64,000 nt of DNA from Kribbella rubisoli (lineage in GTDB: Bacteria > Actinomycetota > Actinomycetes > Propionibacteriales > Kribbellaceae), in the NCBI RefSeq assembly GCF_004217145.1, contig NZ_SHKR01000016.1:528852-592851 (forward strand), written 5' to 3'. Position numbers and translations under genes: made by a program. Shown here in pieces: positions 39,966-46,048 of the stretch. The notes below the pieces were generated by a model that did not search any database, was not told the origin of the DNA, and saw only the letters and a program-made list of their open reading frames with translations. The first letter of the stretch is position 1. Each line of letters starts with the position of its first letter.

Positions 39966-41186
39966 CTAGAGCTTGACGCCCAAGAGGGCGTCGACGGCTA
40001 CGGCGACCAGGGCGGGAGCCTCGTGGTCGTCGCCTTCGCTCTCCGCCCAGGCATCCACGGCAGCCAGCGCAGCGACCGTGTCCAGATCGTTCGTGAGCGC
40101 CGCCCGCAGGGCATCTACCGCAGCCGCGCCATCGGGCCCAGACCCGCGGCCCGCCGCACCACGCCAGACGTCGAGGCGCGCCTGCGCATCGGCCAGGTCG
40201 GACGGCATCCAGAACCAGTCGGTGCGGTAGTGATGCGTGAGCAGAGCCAGCCGGATAGCCATCGGGTCCGCGCCCGCGAGCCGCTCCTTCGACACCAGCA
40301 CCAGGTTGCCCTTGGACTTCGACATCTTCTCGCCGTCGAGCCCGACCATCGCCTGGTGCACGTACGCCCGCGCGAACGGATGCTCGCCGGTCGCGACCTG
40401 CGCACCGCTCGCCGACATCTCGTGGTGCGGGAAGATCAGGTCCGTTCCGCCGCCCTGGACGTCGAACGTCATCCCGAGGTACTTCAGCGCGATCGCCGAG
40501 CACTCCACATGCCACCCCGGCCGGCCGCGTCCGAGCCCCGAGTCCCACGAGGGCTCCCCCGGTCGCTCGTGCCGCCAGAGCAGGCTGTCCAGTGGGTCCT
40601 GCTTGCCCTCGCGATCCGGGTCGCCGCCGCGCTCCGCGAACAGCTCCCGCATCGTCTCGCGGTCGTAGTTCGACACGCCGCCGAACAGCGGGTCGGTCTT
40701 CACCGCGAAGTACAGGTCGCCGTCGACGGAGTACACGGCCCCGGCCCGGCGCAGGTCCTCGACCGCATCGGAGACCAGATCGATCGACTCGACGACGCCG
40801 ATGTAGTGCTGCGGCGGGATCACCCGCAACGCGGTCATGTCGTCGCGGAACAGCTGGATCTCCTGCGCGGCCAGCTCGGTCCATTCGACGCCGGTCGCCG
40901 TCGCCCGCTCGAGCAGCGGATCGTCGACGTCGGTGATGTTCTGCGTGTAGTGGACGTCGTACCCGCTGTCCCGCCACATCCGGTTGATCAGGTCGAACGT
41001 GACGTACGTCGCGGCATGGCCCATGTGGGTCGCGTCGTACGGCGTGATCCCGCACACATACATCCGGGCGGTCGCGCTGTCCGTCGGGGGCACCTCGACC
41101 AGGCCGCGGGAGGCGGTGTCGTAGAGGCGCAGCCGCCGGGCCGGCCCGGGTACGACCGGGATGTCTGGTTTCGTCCACGCCTGCAT
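39966..41186 (-). CDS. mshC: Cysteine:1-D-myo-inosityl 2-amino-2-deoxy-glucopyranoside ligase (MshC)
   Basis: ATP-dependent ligase that joins cysteine to GlcN-Ins in mycothiol synthesis, the main low-molecular-weight thiol of actinobacteria. It is a cysteinyl-tRNA synthetase paralogue of 406 residues: [14 protein letters not shown] holds the zinc-binding Cys and HIGH-like motif, [10 protein letters not shown] and FPHHE further zinc ligands, and [10 protein letters not shown] the KMSKS loop. The shorter length and missing tRNA-binding C-terminal domain distinguish it from CysS. Other mycothiol genes are not in the window. Confidence 0.95.
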
Positions 41187-41287
41187 GTGTCGGAGCTTAT
41201 GCCAGTCCGATTTTCAATGACGCAACACGGTTCCAATCTGTGGTCCGTCCACCGGCTGGCCCCCACGTCCAGCTAGCGTCGCGAGCG

Positions 41288-41986
41288 ATGAGCGCTGACT
41301 TCGGTTCCGACTTCCAGGCGTACGGCGGCTGGATCGCCGCCGCCGCGATCCAGCAACAGGACCTCTTCAACGAGGTGGTCGGCCCTGGCTCGTTGCACGC
41401 CGACCTCGACGCGCGGACGCTCACCGGCGACCGAACCGCCCTCGGCGGCGTCTCGTTGCTCGGCAGCTTCTCGCACCAGGACAGCACCTGGCTGTGGGGC
41501 TGGGCGAACCCGGGCTTCGGCCCGGACGCGCCGGCAGTCGCGCCGACCGACGCGATCCGGCAGTTCGGCGGCAGGCACGGGATCGACGAGTTCACCACCG
41601 GCAGCCTGGACCTGAGCGGGTTCCCGCAACCGGCGCAGGCCGCGATCACGCTCGCGATCACCGCGGGCGCCGTACTCGGTGGTCGTGGCGTCTGGTCGAC
41701 CGCGATCAACGACGGTCGCGGGCAGGTGTATCTGCATGTCGCGGACGAGCAGCTGCCGCTGGCCGGGTTCGATGCGATCGCCACGCCGCGACTGCTGATG
41801 ACGGCTGTCAGCGTGTTCCCGTCCGACCACCGTCAGGTCGTCCGCGGGTACTTCCAGCACTTCGGCCTGCCGTACGACGAGGGGCCCGACGCGATCCGCG
41901 GCACGGCGCCGAACGGCAGCGCCGTGGTCGTGACCTTCGACGACCTCGGCCGCATCGGCAACGTCGGCGTCGAACCGAAGGGCTAG
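41288..41986 (+). CDS. DUF6882 family protein, unknown function
   Basis: Cytoplasmic protein of 232 residues, matching a family of actinobacterial proteins known only as DUF6882. Visible features are WLWGWANP and the GIDEFTTG segment, with no catalytic motif or membrane segment. The ATG at 41288 is the first with a reasonable context. It lies on the opposite strand between mshC and the kinase-like gene, overlapping the latter's end by four bases, so it interrupts an otherwise conserved row. Confidence 0.75.
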   Translation: MSADFGSDFQAYGGWIAAAAIQQQDLFNEVVGPGSLHADLDARTLTGDRTALGGVSLLGSFSHQDSTWLWGWANPGFGPDAPAVAPTDAIRQFGGRHGIDEFTTGSLDLSGFPQPAQAAITLAITAGAVLGGRGVWSTAINDGRGQVYLHVADEQLPLAGFDAIATPRLLMTAVSVFPSDHRQVVRGYFQHFGLPYDEGPDAIRGTAPNGSAVVVTFDDLGRIGNVGVEPKG

Positions 41987-42777
41987 AACGCCGGCCAGGG
42001 AATCGCGGGCCAGTCGTCGCTCGGATACGGGAAGCTGCCGGTCTTGAGCAGCGTCGCGCAGCGCTCGCGGGTCGCGGTCAGCTCGACCGTGGTGATCAGC
42101 TCGCACAGTTGTTGCCCGAAGCCACCAGCGAGCTGATCCGCCAACCGGCGTACGTCGTCCAGCAGGTCGGCCGGGATCGGGTCGCCGGCCCAGCCCCACA
42201 GCACCGTGCGGAGCTTGTCGTCGGCGTTGAACGTGACGCCGTGGTCCACGCCGTACACCCGGCCGTCGCCCGGGTTCAGCACGTGGCCGCCCTTGCGGTC
42301 GGCATTGTTGACCACGGCATCGAAGACGGCCATCCGCTTCAGGGCGTCGTTGTCCGCGTGCACGAGCGTGACCGGGTTGTGGCGGCCGTCGAGCGCCTCG
42401 AGTACGCCGACCCAGCCCTTCGGCACGCGACCTTGCGGAACGATGTCGACCAGCTCGGTCTCCCCCGCCCCGAGCTCGGCCTCGTCGATCCACAACTGCA
42501 CCATGCCCTCGCCGAGCGGCCCGTCCCGCAACAGCGTCGGCGGCACGACCGACCAGCCGAGCGTCTCGGACACGACGTACGCCGCGAACTCGCGCTGCGC
42601 GAGCGTGCCGTCGGGGAAGTCCCACAGCGGCCGCTCACCCTCGATCGGCTTGTAGACGACAGTAGCGGTCTCCCCGTCCAGGCTCACGGAGCCCTGGTAG
42701 GTGCCGTTCGAGGCCGCGACGAGGCGACCGTGCAGTGACAGCTCCCCGCGGGCGAGCAGGTCGGAATCAGTCATCAT
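41983..42777 (-). CDS. SCO1664-family protein, PI3/PI4-kinase-like fold
   Basis: Conserved actinobacterial protein of 264 residues, found next to mshC. Kinase-like elements can be seen: VVYKPIEGERPLWD has the expected Lys, FDAVVNNADRKGGHVL the catalytic-loop-like Asp with Asn/Lys, and VYGVDHGVTFN the metal-binding Asp. It thus resembles small PI3/4-kinase-fold enzymes, but no activity is known. Its start overlaps the stop of DUF3090 (ATGATGA). A similar set (recalled as Rv2133c-Rv2135c) exists in mycobacteria. Confidence 0.82.
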   Translation of the reverse strand: MMTDSDLLARGELSLHGRLVAASNGTYQGSVSLDGETATVVYKPIEGERPLWDFPDGTLAQREFAAYVVSETLGWSVVPPTLLRDGPLGEGMVQLWIDEAELGAGETELVDIVPQGRVPKGWVGVLEALDGRHNPVTLVHADNDALKRMAVFDAVVNNADRKGGHVLNPGDGRVYGVDHGVTFNADDKLRTVLWGWAGDPIPADLLDDVRRLADQLAGGFGQQLCELITTVELTATRERCATLLKTGSFPYPSDDWPAIPWPAF

Positions 42778-43349
42778 TCCGGCAGGTGTCGGCGGTAACC
42801 GTTGGCCCGCGGGCAGATGTGTCCGTCCGCGTCGATCGGCCGACCGCAGAACGGGCAGCTCGGGCGACCGGACGCGACCAGCGCGACCGCACGCCGGGCG
42901 AACGCCCTGGCCTGCTCCTCGGTGATCCGGACGATGAACACCTCGGCGTCGTCGGACTCCATCGCGGCCGTGACCGGATCGGTCTCCTCGAGGTCGGCCT
43001 GCTCACCCGTGACGACCGCGAACACCTCGATCACCACGCGCTCGGCGTCGGCCTCCCAGGCCAGCGTCATCGTGCCGGCCCGGAACTCCTCCTCGATCGG
43101 CTGCTCCAGCGGCGCAGTGTCGTCCACCGCGGTCTGCGTCACCGGATCGCGGTCGAAGCGCCGGGCGACCTCGTCCAGCATCACGTCGAGACGCTCCGCG
43201 AGAGCCATCACCTGCTCCTTCTCGCACGCGACCGACGTCAGCCGTTGCCCGGCCCTGGCCTGCAGGAAGAACGTCCTCGCACCTGGTTCTCCGACGGTGC
43301 CGGCGACGAACCGCTCTGGGTCGTCGTAGGTATGTACAACTCGCGCCAT
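42774..43349 (-). CDS. DUF3090 family protein with zinc-knuckle-like C-terminus
   Basis: Protein of 191 residues conserved in actinobacteria. The N-terminal region starts ARVVHTYDDPERFVAGTVGE; the C-terminus has CPFCGRPIDADGHICPR, probably a zinc-binding C-x2-C/H-x-C site. No enzymatic motif is known. It sits between the phosphatase and the kinase-like gene, 12 bases after the former and overlapping the latter, so the three are surely one operon. Confidence 0.88.
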   Translation of the reverse strand: MARVVHTYDDPERFVAGTVGEPGARTFFLQARAGQRLTSVACEKEQVMALAERLDVMLDEVARRFDRDPVTQTAVDDTAPLEQPIEEEFRAGTMTLAWEADAERVVIEVFAVVTGEQADLEETDPVTAAMESDDAEVFIVRITEEQARAFARRAVALVASGRPSCPFCGRPIDADGHICPRANGYRRHLPE

Positions 43350-43361
43350 ATCTAGACCCTA

Positions 43362-44075
43362 TTACCGTCCGCCGACCACTGCGTCCGAGGACTGCTTCTT
43401 GGGCTTGCCTTTCGCTGTCGGCTTAGGAACCAGTGAAGCCAGCTCGCTGCCGGAGTCGTTCAGGCGGACCAGGAACGGGCGGGTCGCGGTGTAGGTGATG
43501 ATCGTGGTCGAGGCGGTGTCCACGACGATCCGCTGGAACGTGTCCAGGTGCTGGCCGAGCGCATCCGCCACGATCGCCTTGATCACGTCGCCGTGTGAGA
43601 CCGCGACCCAGATCGCGTTGTTGCCATGGGACTTGGCGAGCTCCGCGTCGTGCGCTCGTACGGCGTCGACCGCGCGCTGCTGCATCCCCCGCATCGACTC
43701 GCCGTTCGGGAACGTGACCGCCGACGGGTGCTGCTGGACGACGGCCCACAGCGGGTCCTTCGCGAGGGTCGCGATCTTCTTGCCGGTCCAGTCGCCGTAC
43801 CCGCACTCGGTCAACCGCCGGTCGGTTGCCGGACGCAACACGTGCTCGGGATGGTGCTCGGCGTGGTGCTTGGCGATCGCTGCGGCGGTCTGCTTACACC
43901 GCTCGAGCGGCGAGGTGACGATCGCGGCCAGCGGCAGCTCGGCCAGCCGCTGCGCCACCGCCTCGGCCTGTTTGACGCCGGTCTCGTCCAGCTTCACACC
44001 GGGCGTGCGACCAGCCAGCGTGCCGGACGTATTCGCGGCACTACGGCCGTGACGGACCAGAATCACCGTGGGCAT
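43362..44075 (-). CDS. Histidine phosphatase (MSMEG_4193/Rv2135c-like)
   Basis: Branch-1 histidine phosphatase of 237 residues. The catalytic RHG motif is ILVRHGRSAAN near the N-terminus, and VSHGDVIKAIV carries the second His; SPLERCKQTA supplies the phosphate-binding Arg. The C-terminal tail is basic (KPTAKGKPKKQ). Mycobacterial relatives dephosphorylate general substrates in vitro; the natural substrate is open. It heads the operon with DUF3090 and the kinase-like protein, pairing a phosphatase with a kinase fold. Confidence 0.9.
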   Translation of the reverse strand: MPTVILVRHGRSAANTSGTLAGRTPGVKLDETGVKQAEAVAQRLAELPLAAIVTSPLERCKQTAAAIAKHHAEHHPEHVLRPATDRRLTECGYGDWTGKKIATLAKDPLWAVVQQHPSAVTFPNGESMRGMQQRAVDAVRAHDAELAKSHGNNAIWVAVSHGDVIKAIVADALGQHLDTFQRIVVDTASTTIITYTATRPFLVRLNDSGSELASLVPKPTAKGKPKKQSSDAVVGGR

Positions 44076-44112
44076 GGTGTGCACGTTATCCGGTCCGGCA
44101 AGTTCGGGTGCC

Positions 44113-45096
44113 ATGATGGGGGACGTGATCGTGGACTGCGGGGTGTACGCCGAGGGGGAACGGCGGGATCTGCCCAAGGATCCCGAGACCGTTGCCCAGG
44201 CCATCGACGACGACCACGACTCGTTCGGGTGGATCGGGCTGCACGACCCGTCCGACGACGAGATGAAGCGGGTGCAGCGGCTGTTCAATCTGCACGATCT
44301 TGCCGTCGAGGACGCACTGCAGATCCACCAGCGGCCGAAGGTCGAGCGGTTCGGCGACATGATCCTCGTCGTACTGCGGACCCTCTGGTACGTCGACGAA
44401 GGTGACGCGGTCGAGACCGGCCAGGTGACGGCGTTCATCGGCCAGCGGTACGTCGTGACCGTGCGGCACGGGGAAGGCGGTGAGCTCGCCACCACGCGGC
44501 ACGAGCTTGAGGAGCGCGCGTCGATGCTCGGGCACGGGCCGGCCGCCGTACTGTGGGCGATCTGCGACGCGATCGTCGACCAGTACGAGACCGTCGCCGA
44601 ACAGGTCGAGTTCGACGTCGACGAGATCGAGAGCTCGGTGTTCTCGCCCGAGCGGACCAGCGACGCGGAGCGGATCTACCGGCTCAAGCGCGAGGTGCTC
44701 GAGATGCGTCGGGCGATCGATCCGCTGCGCGAGCCGATGGAGGAGTTCGCGCACGGCGTCGCCGGCCTCGGCCCGAAGGCGAGCCCGTTCTTCCGCGATG
44801 TCGCCGACCACCTCACCCGCGTCTCCGAGCAGACCGAGTCGATCGACATCCTGCTCCAGTCGGCGCTGAACGCACACCTCGCCCGGGTGTCCGTCCAGCA
44901 GAACGACGACATGCGAAAAATCTCAGCCTGGGTTGCCATCGCGGCGGTCCCCACGATGCTGGCGGGCATCTACGGCATGAACTTCGACAACATGCCCGAA
45001 CTCCGCTGGCACTTCGGCTACTACGCCGTCCTCCTCCTGATGGCCATCGTCTGCACCACCATGTACGCCTTCTTCCGCAAGGTCGGCTGGCTGTAG
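44113..45096 (+). CDS. corA: CorA-type magnesium/cobalt channel
   Basis: Homopentameric inner-membrane Mg2+ channel of 327 residues. A long cytoplasmic alpha/beta domain is followed by two C-terminal membrane segments; the pore signature YGMNFDNMPE closes the first. The chosen ATG is at 44113 (MMGDVIVDCG); an open frame from 44068 would overlap the divergent phosphatase start. No Mg riboswitch can fit in the short upstream region. Convergent with uppP across a hairpin. Confidence 0.93.
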   Translation: MMGDVIVDCGVYAEGERRDLPKDPETVAQAIDDDHDSFGWIGLHDPSDDEMKRVQRLFNLHDLAVEDALQIHQRPKVERFGDMILVVLRTLWYVDEGDAVETGQVTAFIGQRYVVTVRHGEGGELATTRHELEERASMLGHGPAAVLWAICDAIVDQYETVAEQVEFDVDEIESSVFSPERTSDAERIYRLKREVLEMRRAIDPLREPMEEFAHGVAGLGPKASPFFRDVADHLTRVSEQTESIDILLQSALNAHLARVSVQQNDDMRKISAWVAIAAVPTMLAGIYGMNFDNMPELRWHFGYYAVLLLMAIVCTTMYAFFRKVGWL

Positions 45097-45220: not shown

Positions 45221-46048
45221 TCAGGTGGCGGTGATGGTGCTGGTGGCCAGGAGGATTACGAGGACTATGCCCAGTAGGACGCGGTAGAAGGCGAAGACCT
45301 CGATGGTGTGCTTGGCGACGAAGCGGAGCAGCCAGGCGATCGACGCGTACGCGACGACGAAGCTGACGACCGTGCCGACGAGCAGAGGCACGGCGCCTAC
45401 GGTGCCGTGGAGAGCGTCCTTCAGTTCATAGACGCCTGCGCCTACAAGCGCCGGGATGCCCAGCAGGAACGAGATTCTCGTCGCGGCTACTCGGTCCAGG
45501 CCTCGGAAGAGGCCGGCTGAGATTGTGGCGCCGGAGCGGGAGATGCCGGGGATCAGGGCCAGGCATTGGACCAGGCCCATGACGAGCGCATCGATGAACG
45601 TGATGCGGGTCAGCGGGCGTTCCTTGGTGCCGATGCGTTCCGCGGCGACCATTACGACCGACCAGCCGATCAGGGCGGCGGCGACCCACCACAGGCTGCG
45701 CAGCGGACCCGAGATCAGGTCGCGGGCGAGGAAGCCGACGATCACGATCGGAACGGAGCCGACGATGACGTACCAGCCCATGCGGTGGTCGAACTCGCCG
45801 CGGTGTTCGGGGTTCGCCAGGCCGCGGACCCAGGCGACCGCGATGCGGGAGATGTCTTTCCAGAAGTACAGGACGACCGCGGCGATCGCGCCGACCTGGA
45901 TCACCGCGGTGAAGCCGGTGATCGACGGGTCGTCGATCTTCAGGCCGAGCATCTTCGACACGATGGTCAGGTGCCCGGTGCTGGAGACCGGGAGGAATTC
46001 GGTCAGGCCCTCGACGATGCCGAGGATGATGGAGTCCCAGATCGTCAT
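45221..46048 (-). CDS. uppP: Undecaprenyl-diphosphatase UppP (BacA)
   Basis: Integral membrane phosphatase of 275 residues that recycles undecaprenyl diphosphate to the monophosphate carrier for peptidoglycan and other wall polymers; excess confers bacitracin resistance. Both active-site motifs are intact: GIVEGLTEFLPVSSTGH and IPGISRSGATISAGL. Its ATG overlaps the upstream oxidoreductase stop (TGATG). Confidence 0.95.
   Translation of the reverse strand: MTIWDSIILGIVEGLTEFLPVSSTGHLTIVSKMLGLKIDDPSITGFTAVIQVGAIAAVVLYFWKDISRIAVAWVRGLANPEHRGEFDHRMGWYVIVGSVPIVIVGFLARDLISGPLRSLWWVAAALIGWSVVMVAAERIGTKERPLTRITFIDALVMGLVQCLALIPGISRSGATISAGLFRGLDRVAATRISFLLGIPALVGAGVYELKDALHGTVGAVPLLVGTVVSFVVAYASIAWLLRFVAKHTIEVFAFYRVLLGIVLVILLATSTITAT

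Follow-up and report, generated by a model that had tools for sequence, protein, structure and literature searches.

Most actinomycetes rely on mycothiol as their main protective thiol, the synthesis of which was described in 2010 as missing a predicted phosphatase for N-acetylglucosamine (GlcNAc)-inositol-phosphate, with impA, suhB and cysQ mutants showing normal mycothiol (available text of PMC2834668). The name MshA2, or mshA2, is used without a locus in the accessible parts of PMC4360819, PMC10826361, PMC10893638 and PMC2628429. SCO1664 was placed among the actinobacterial signature proteins in a 2013 review, which called it "generally very close to mshC", elsewhere "invariably closely linked", and suggested its involvement in a mycothiol network (portion available of PMC4255298). 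Here we analyzed a gene of the SCO1664 family (K) together with its operon partners, a histidine phosphatase (P) and a DUF3090 protein (D; DUF, domain of unknown function), in a stretch of 64,000 nucleotides from Kribbella rubisoli (assembly GCF_004217145.1, contig NZ_SHKR01000016.1, positions 528,852 to 592,851 of the forward strand; the window). The three genes are referred to as the trio, and the class of the window genome (8.64 Mb) as the home class. We tentatively propose that the trio may be a phosphorylation module that works for the inositol/mycothiol branch of metabolism in actinobacteria, in which P would likely act on GlcNAc-inositol-phosphate; in the openly readable literature searched, neither a locus for the dephosphorylation step nor a proposal of P as MshA2 was found.

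No substrate is assigned in the NCBIfam entries for the three families, and the TIGRFAM notes speak of an actinobacterial system of three genes, one of them probably for a kinase akin to the phosphatidylinositol kinases. The orthologue of P in Mycobacterium tuberculosis is presumably Rv2135c, as named by an earlier sequence-only reading of the window. Rv2135c is a histidine phosphatase adjoining an uppP homologue and carrying an RHA motif (available text of PMC3866925). Other mentions of family members are incidental table entries (a rifampicin screen, the ClpC1 interactome and a dibucaine screen).

The P-D-K operon and its proteins

P, D and K form an operon on the minus strand, which confirms the original observation made from the window. 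Gene order was compared in 80 named loci, the best of 592 fetched with the pattern NN[AT]DRK[GAS][GS]H and skewed toward the home class, and in 38 loci from other genomes. Wherever all three genes were held by a locus (68 of the 80 named and 34 of the 38 others), they stood in the order P-D-K on one strand; this order is not chance, and the operon is conserved as had been expected. Among the 12 named loci without P, two (L091 and L102) begin close to D and the other ten hold P elsewhere in the genome (318.8–331.2 bits), so the trio tends to be retained even if split. Translational coupling, supposed for the whole operon, could be kept for D and K, where the D stop and K start overlap by 4 bp (ATGA), but not for P and D, because these are separated by 12 bp. 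An apparent D-K fusion in L091 was rejected as an artefact, its open reading frame (ORF) crossing a stretch of N.

The assignment of P as a histidine phosphatase was borne out by 311.1 bits against TIGR03848 (cut-off 203.85; family name "putative phosphomutase"), by 165.8 bits against PF00300, branch 1 of the histidine phosphatase superfamily (cut-off 21.7), and by the catalytic residues R8, H9 and H161, intact in 107 of 107 aligned sequences. The window P reads RHG, and the last position of this motif is G in 98 and A in 9 of the 107. By the dPGM equivalog P is not a phosphoglycerate mutase (NF038349, 89.5 bits, cut-off 225), and it stays under the alpha-ribazole phosphatase cut-off (TIGR03162, 111.4 vs. 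162.9 bits), which is still its next-best NCBIfam match. Phosphoserine phosphatase 1 came first among its PDB matches, where CobC and glucosyl-3-phosphoglycerate phosphatase were also listed.

K matched TIGR03843 with 375.5 bits (cut-off 172.4; residues 8–264 on profile positions 1–253). The best Foldseek matches of its AlphaFold2 model (predicted local distance difference test, pLDDT, 88.8) were type II phosphatidylinositol 4-kinases (PI4KII; E 1.3e-5, TM-score 0.44). In the VIA lists for K and D, which are second looks at Foldseek's matches and in which a missing family shows nothing, the nine best entries for K were all PI4KII (Z 16.7–17.9; for the best, Z 17.9 with a root-mean-square deviation (rmsd) of 4.1 over 229 aligned residues), and Fam20 (Z 13.8), CtkA (12.8), HipA (10.8) and also PI3K-type kinases came after them. 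The profile of 32 K relatives reached PI4KIIbeta at E 1.8e-4 over the whole chain, which at the level of sequence is a line of support for PI4KII independent of the fold model, and the kinase fold that the sequence-only reading had proposed for the 264-residue protein was supported. The window K itself remained under the gathering cut-off of the Pfam PI3/PI4 kinase family (PF00454; 13.8 vs. 27.1 bits), a family that 29 of the 32 K-family members touched at E ≤ 0.1 (best 1.1e-13). Single-sequence searches of solved structures with K or D gave weak matches, taken as chance.

Residue conservation in K was followed in 116 distinct sequences (the window, 35 from other genomes and 80 named). K43, E63, D153, D178, K188, R190, T191 and W194 were invariant in all 116, and so were N158, D160, R161, K162 and H165 of the catalytic loop; since the fetch pattern contains the K motif, loop conservation within the 80 named loci is by construction, and the rows independent of that motif (window included) kept the five residues in 36 of 36, as did an earlier set of 32 K sequences. 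His165 occupies the position of the metal-binding Asn of PI4KII, so that K carries D-x4-H (36/36 motif-independent sequences) for D-x4-N. From the model and these residues we infer that K is probably active as a kinase and that its metal site is unusual. Another possibility, which we consider very unlikely, is that the His makes K a pseudokinase or scaffold: the replacement runs through every motif-independent sequence, and Fam20A chains that match the K profile, with Glu at the His165 position, are named pseudokinases. That match is weak (E 0.005), however, PI4KII, an active kinase, is closer to K, and the invariance of K43, E63 and D178 (116/116) would be unexpected in a degenerate kinase.

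D scored 232.7 bits against TIGR03847 (cut-off 117.25) and 216.9 against PF11290 (cut-off 27). Its model (pLDDT 84.4; predicted template modelling score, pTM, 0.75) drew no Foldseek match better than E 0.015, and the VIA list placed D residues 9–161 on Pur-alpha repeats I–II (Z 9.9, rmsd 3.2, 112 residues), with two uncharacterised cyanobacterial proteins at Z 6.8 and 6.5 and Whirly proteins at 5.0–5.7. The D sequence profile, searched against solved structures, gave only weak matches that were taken as chance and no sequence-level PUR match. In the tail, C165, C168 and C179 are present in 115 of 116 aligned sequences and H177 in 114 (one row is truncated), zinc-type ligands that agree, as far as residues go, with the probable zinc protein of the sequence-only reading. 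With moderate confidence we assign D a predicted PUR/Whirly-like fold with a zinc-type tail, which that reading had not foreseen; this fold suggests that D may bind nucleic acid. A fold assignment for DUF3090 was not found in the openly readable literature searched, and SCO1521, reached via a guessed name, was set aside as a member of another family whose paper places it beside RuvABC.

Distribution of the trio and of mycothiol genes

Two samples were screened, 197 genomes of the phylum (18 of them also in the class sample, 179 outside the home class) and 197 genomes of the home class; all counts are of species, uncorrected for ancestry, and not of independent events. P was counted at E ≤ 1e-50, which misses the P of G077 and G188 (seen beside D in L044 and L051) and of G150 (D at a contig edge) in the phylum sample, and those of G285 (from a family scoring close to the threshold) and G345 in the class sample. 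The K counts include one weak partial match in each sample (G165, E 9.1e-4, phylum; G341, E 1.2e-4, class). MshA was counted at E ≤ 1e-100, and MshC-like stands for > 340 bits in a list reaching down to ~280 bits; in the class sample, MshC covered the 18 genomes common to the phylum sample and 14 others.

The phylum sample has 82 genomes with K, as many with D and 79 with P, D and K being together in 81 and each alone in one (agreement 195/197). In the class sample, 185 genomes have K (184 of them above its cut-off), 186 have D and 184 have P, with absences at the thresholds used of 12 for K, 11 for D, 13 for P and 11 for MshA. The parts of the trio are nevertheless separable: the Corynebacterium glutamicum control genome has K and P, with D not found; G008 carries a second P-K pair without D (locus L053, 8892–10266); and in G256 P, D and mshC are contiguous (L163, 8605–11149) and MshA is present, with no K match anywhere. 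The K of the second pair in G008 is nearest to a deep-lineage K (54%), which may mean horizontal gain.

The predicted folds allow the trio to be read as a protein-phosphorylation switch, in which K would phosphorylate a protein, possibly D itself or one of its partners, P would remove the phosphate and D would bind nucleic acid as the effector. Fam20, CtkA and HipA, the nearest folds of K after PI4KII, are protein kinases, D resembles nucleic-acid-binding PUR/Whirly folds and has the conserved CxxC...HxC tail, D and K overlap in the operon, and the best PDB match of P is a phosphoserine phosphatase. The persistence of K and P without D in the C. glutamicum control and in L053 speaks against it, as D can then not be an obligatory substrate of K, and the association with MshA-like genes described below would need a separate reason; we hold such a switch to be possible, though doubtful.

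MshC over its cut-off was confined to 18 of the 197 genomes in the phylum sample, namely every one that belongs to the home class, and 60 of the 78 complete trios are therefore without it. MshA was counted in 77 of the 197 genomes, 28 of the 77 passing the family cut-off. Of the 179 genomes that are not of the home class, D and MshA-like genes occurred together in 56, D only in 8, MshA only in 3 and neither in 112, which means MshA-like genes in 56 of 64 genomes with D vs. 3 of 115 without it; the corresponding counts for MshC-like proteins, some of which may be true MshC, were 23 of 64 and 2 of 115, and 35 of the 56 genomes with both D and an MshA-like gene had no MshC-like protein. By these outside-class counts, the trio follows the inositol-phosphate-using first step no less closely than it does the cysteine step. 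The tie to mshC drawn by the sequence-only reading is upheld by frequent linkage (64 of the 80 named loci) but is weaker than that reading suggested, given the trios without MshC over the cut-off, although MshC-like proteins accompany D in part of the genomes outside the class. Compared directly, and with ancestry uncontrolled, P and MshA were both present in 73 phylum genomes, P only in 6, MshA only in 4 and neither in 114; in the class sample the numbers were 182, 2, 4 and 9. MshA-like genes were not adjacent to the trio in the positions listed.

Joint absence was seen in one family of the home class (f81, genera g186 and g190), where nine of ten genomes, four of the nine being single contigs, are without P, D, K, MshA and MshC at the thresholds used. 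In the tenth, G350, the trio lies ~34 kb from the end of its contig and MshC on another contig, ~241 kb from the end, so one deletion would not obviously remove the trio and MshC. Microbacteriaceae, not necessarily the same family as f81, use mycothiol sparingly (available text of the Pontimonas paper, PMC6106888).

With the co-occurrence of D and MshA-like genes outside the class and the joint absence in the nine f81 genomes, P is a reasonable candidate for MshA2. The most likely substrate of P would be an inositol glycoside carrying a phosphate, first of all the MshA product GlcNAc-inositol-phosphate, which would make P the enzyme of the MshA2 step. K, as an ATP-dependent kinase of PI4KII fold, might work the other way on a compound that contains inositol, in salvage or flux control, and D, PUR/Whirly-like with its zinc-type tail, may be an accessory or regulatory part, since the kinase-phosphatase pair can exist without it. 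The substrates, the direction of control and the role of D are what we infer here, and the inositol idea, already raised by the sequence-only reading, is plausible and unproven. A fuller version, to which we give a rather low probability, takes P as MshA2, K as a soluble inositol-glycoside kinase (PI4KII fold, D-x4-H) working against P and D as a PUR-fold regulator, with the module serving another inositol-glycoside product in the deep MshA-like lineages without recognisable MshC. As the trio occurs mostly where the first mycothiol gene or a close relative is present, one of its members may be a missing step of the pathway, and the dephosphorylation step gains in P a concrete candidate. The 35 of 179 outside-class genomes with D and an MshA-like gene but no MshC-like protein raise the question of what product, if any, is made from GlcNAc-inositol.

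A number of observations weigh against the inositol/mycothiol proposal. Outside the class only 10 of the 59 MshA-like matches pass the family cut-off, and the 2013 review has the pathway absent outside actinomycetes except in Acidimicrobium ferrooxidans (portion available of PMC4255298), so many deep MshA-like genes may act otherwise or make another inositol glycoside. Most of the association between trio and MshA comes from deep clades with and without the trio, and shared inheritance of both in these clades may explain most of it. D also accompanies MshC-like proteins, and a preference for MshA over MshC thus rests on the 35 genomes without the latter. At E 1e-100, MshA is missing from ten genomes that have D; among the eight outside-class genomes of this kind two have an MshC-like protein and six have neither, and in the class G350 and G377 have the trio and MshC over the cut-off with no MshA at the threshold. 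MshA without D was found in G044, G055 and G193 outside the class and in G224 and G305 within it; the latter two have no K, D, P or MshC and are 96–97% complete, and since these four genes are neighbours in most of the class loci seen, a single assembly gap could explain such a pattern. The loss of K in G256, with mshC and MshA kept, is a further exception. On the biochemical side, Rv2135c was a weak acid phosphatase with no activity on 3-phosphoglycerate, ADP or glucose-6-phosphate; none of the substrates tried contained inositol, a word absent from the available text (PMC3866925). The 2010 authors suggested that ImpC might be an enzyme of the early steps in mycothiol synthesis (available text of PMC2834668).

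Part of this also fits a housekeeping pair of small-molecule kinase and phosphatase unrelated to mycothiol, with the nearness of mshC being a gene order inherited in one class. The 60 complete trios without MshC over the cut-off, the six genomes with D and neither MshA-like nor MshC-like genes, and the loss of K alone in G256 point this way. So does a neighbour clustering by blastp of ORFs ≥ 90 amino acids (aa) in 36 mostly deep loci: among the clusters listed, ranked by size, the largest beyond the trio and the antisense ORFs overlapping it reached 9 of 36 loci, mshC among them, and all members of the mshC cluster were from the home class. The strong association with MshA-like genes that are not adjacent argues against such a pair, as does the f81 family, where trio, MshA and MshC are missing together from nine genomes and G350 has trio and mshC on separate contigs; we would call it conceivable, on the low side. 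All in all, P as MshA2 weighs about the same as the protein-phosphorylation switch and as the module unrelated to mycothiol.

Locus layout and neighbouring genes

The positions of the trio and its neighbours are given in Table 1. The K of the window is closest, among named organisms, to that of Kribbella sindirgiensis (92% identity).

Table 1. Trio, active-site elements and neighbouring genes, with positions in the window
Feature	Position	Strand	Remarks
P, histidine phosphatase, MSMEG_4193 family (TIGR03848)	43362–44075	minus	237 aa from ATG at 44075; first gene of the operon
D, DUF3090 (TIGR03847, PF11290)	42774–43349	minus	191 aa; predicted PUR/Whirly-like fold, C-terminal CxxC...HxC
Putative zinc site of D (C165, C168, H177, C179)	42813–42857	minus	residue conservation
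K, SCO1664 family (TIGR03843), PI4KII-like predicted kinase fold	41983–42777	minus	264 aa
Catalytic loop of K, D160-R-K-x-x-H165	42283–42300	minus	aligns with DRGNDN of PI4KII
D178-H-G of K	42238–42246	minus	aligns with IDNG, which binds metal in PI4KII
mshC, cysteine ligase of mycothiol synthesis	39966–41186	minus	TIGR03447, 632.2 bits, cut-off 485.1
DUF6882 gene, convergent, between K and mshC	41240–41986	plus	detected in 3/6 Kribbella loci
uppP, undecaprenyl-diphosphate phosphatase	45221–46048	minus	library match; recurs in 31/80 named loci

In the 64 named loci with mshC downstream of K on the same strand, the distance was ≤ 225 bp in 46 and ≤ 1000 bp in 55; mshC was on the opposite strand in one of the 80 and not seen in 15, two of them for lack of sequence, the other 13 having at least 5 kb of downstream sequence each. 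The likeness to mycobacteria pointed out by the sequence-only reading was found in four mycobacterial loci (L111, L120, L130 and L136), which have the same arrangement with mshC 789–938 bp downstream. In the window, the trio and mshC are not a single unbroken operon, as the convergent DUF6882 gene sits between K and mshC; its end overlaps that of K by 4 bp. A corA-type transporter gene (44068–45096) is divergent from P; its start, a GTG called mechanically, overlaps that of P, so the true one probably lies further in. Among the deep loci, some groups share neighbours, in 5–6 loci each.

The authors of the Rv2135c study suggested in their discussion that the phosphatase helps to recycle undecaprenyl phosphate together with UppP (available text of PMC3866925). 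Carried over to P, this would suit the closeness of uppP in the window and its presence within the retrieved stretch in 31 of the 80 named loci. This proximity is less constant than that of D, K or mshC, though, the uppP cluster (7 of 36 loci) is again of the home class only, and K would be left unexplained, so we give this role only a slight chance.

A mobile-element context was considered and rejected: K was found in two plasmid records and one phage record, with no sign of a mobile system. The phage record L172 (MT835969.1, Bacteriophage sp., human faeces) looks like a bacterial chromosome, as uppP, P, D, K and the start of mshC are aboard. L173 (NZ_LR134462.1), "plasmid 20" of a Tsukamurella, holds uppP, the trio, mshC and metH and is probably a piece of chromosome.

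Comparison with known systems

The three proteins of the window belong over their full length to the named families, with scores far above the cut-offs, and no family-level difference was seen; the window adds the DUF6882 gene between K and mshC. The sequence-only reading had called the operon an undescribed system, which does not hold for the genes as such, the families (that of K included) being named and the link of K to mshC noted in the 2013 review. It does hold for the match of K to PI4KII with D-x4-H, for the fold likeness and tail of DUF3090 and for the co-occurrence of D with MshA-like genes outside the class, all of which are new here. DUF3090 thereby gains a fold-based reading, and the kinase family an unusual active site whose conservation extends beyond the home class.

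P and Rv2135c are both histidine phosphatases near an uppP homologue, with RHG in the window P and RHA in Rv2135c. D resembles Pur-alpha and Whirly proteins in its model, at 7% identity, and differs by its additional zinc-type tail. K shares with Fam20, CtkA and HipA the same broad atypical kinase fold, and the Pfam families Fam20C and HipA_2 were weakly touched by 3 and 7 of the 32 K-family members, respectively; the scores are lower than for PI4KII, however, and no HipB-like partner was present among the annotated genes beside K in the window. With PI4KII alpha and beta, K has in common the predicted fold over nearly the whole chain and the motifs N-x-D-R and I-D-x-G. It differs from them in its 17% identity (TM-score 0.44), in the lack of the PI4KII motif CCPCC from its sequence, and in the His that takes the place of the metal-binding Asn.

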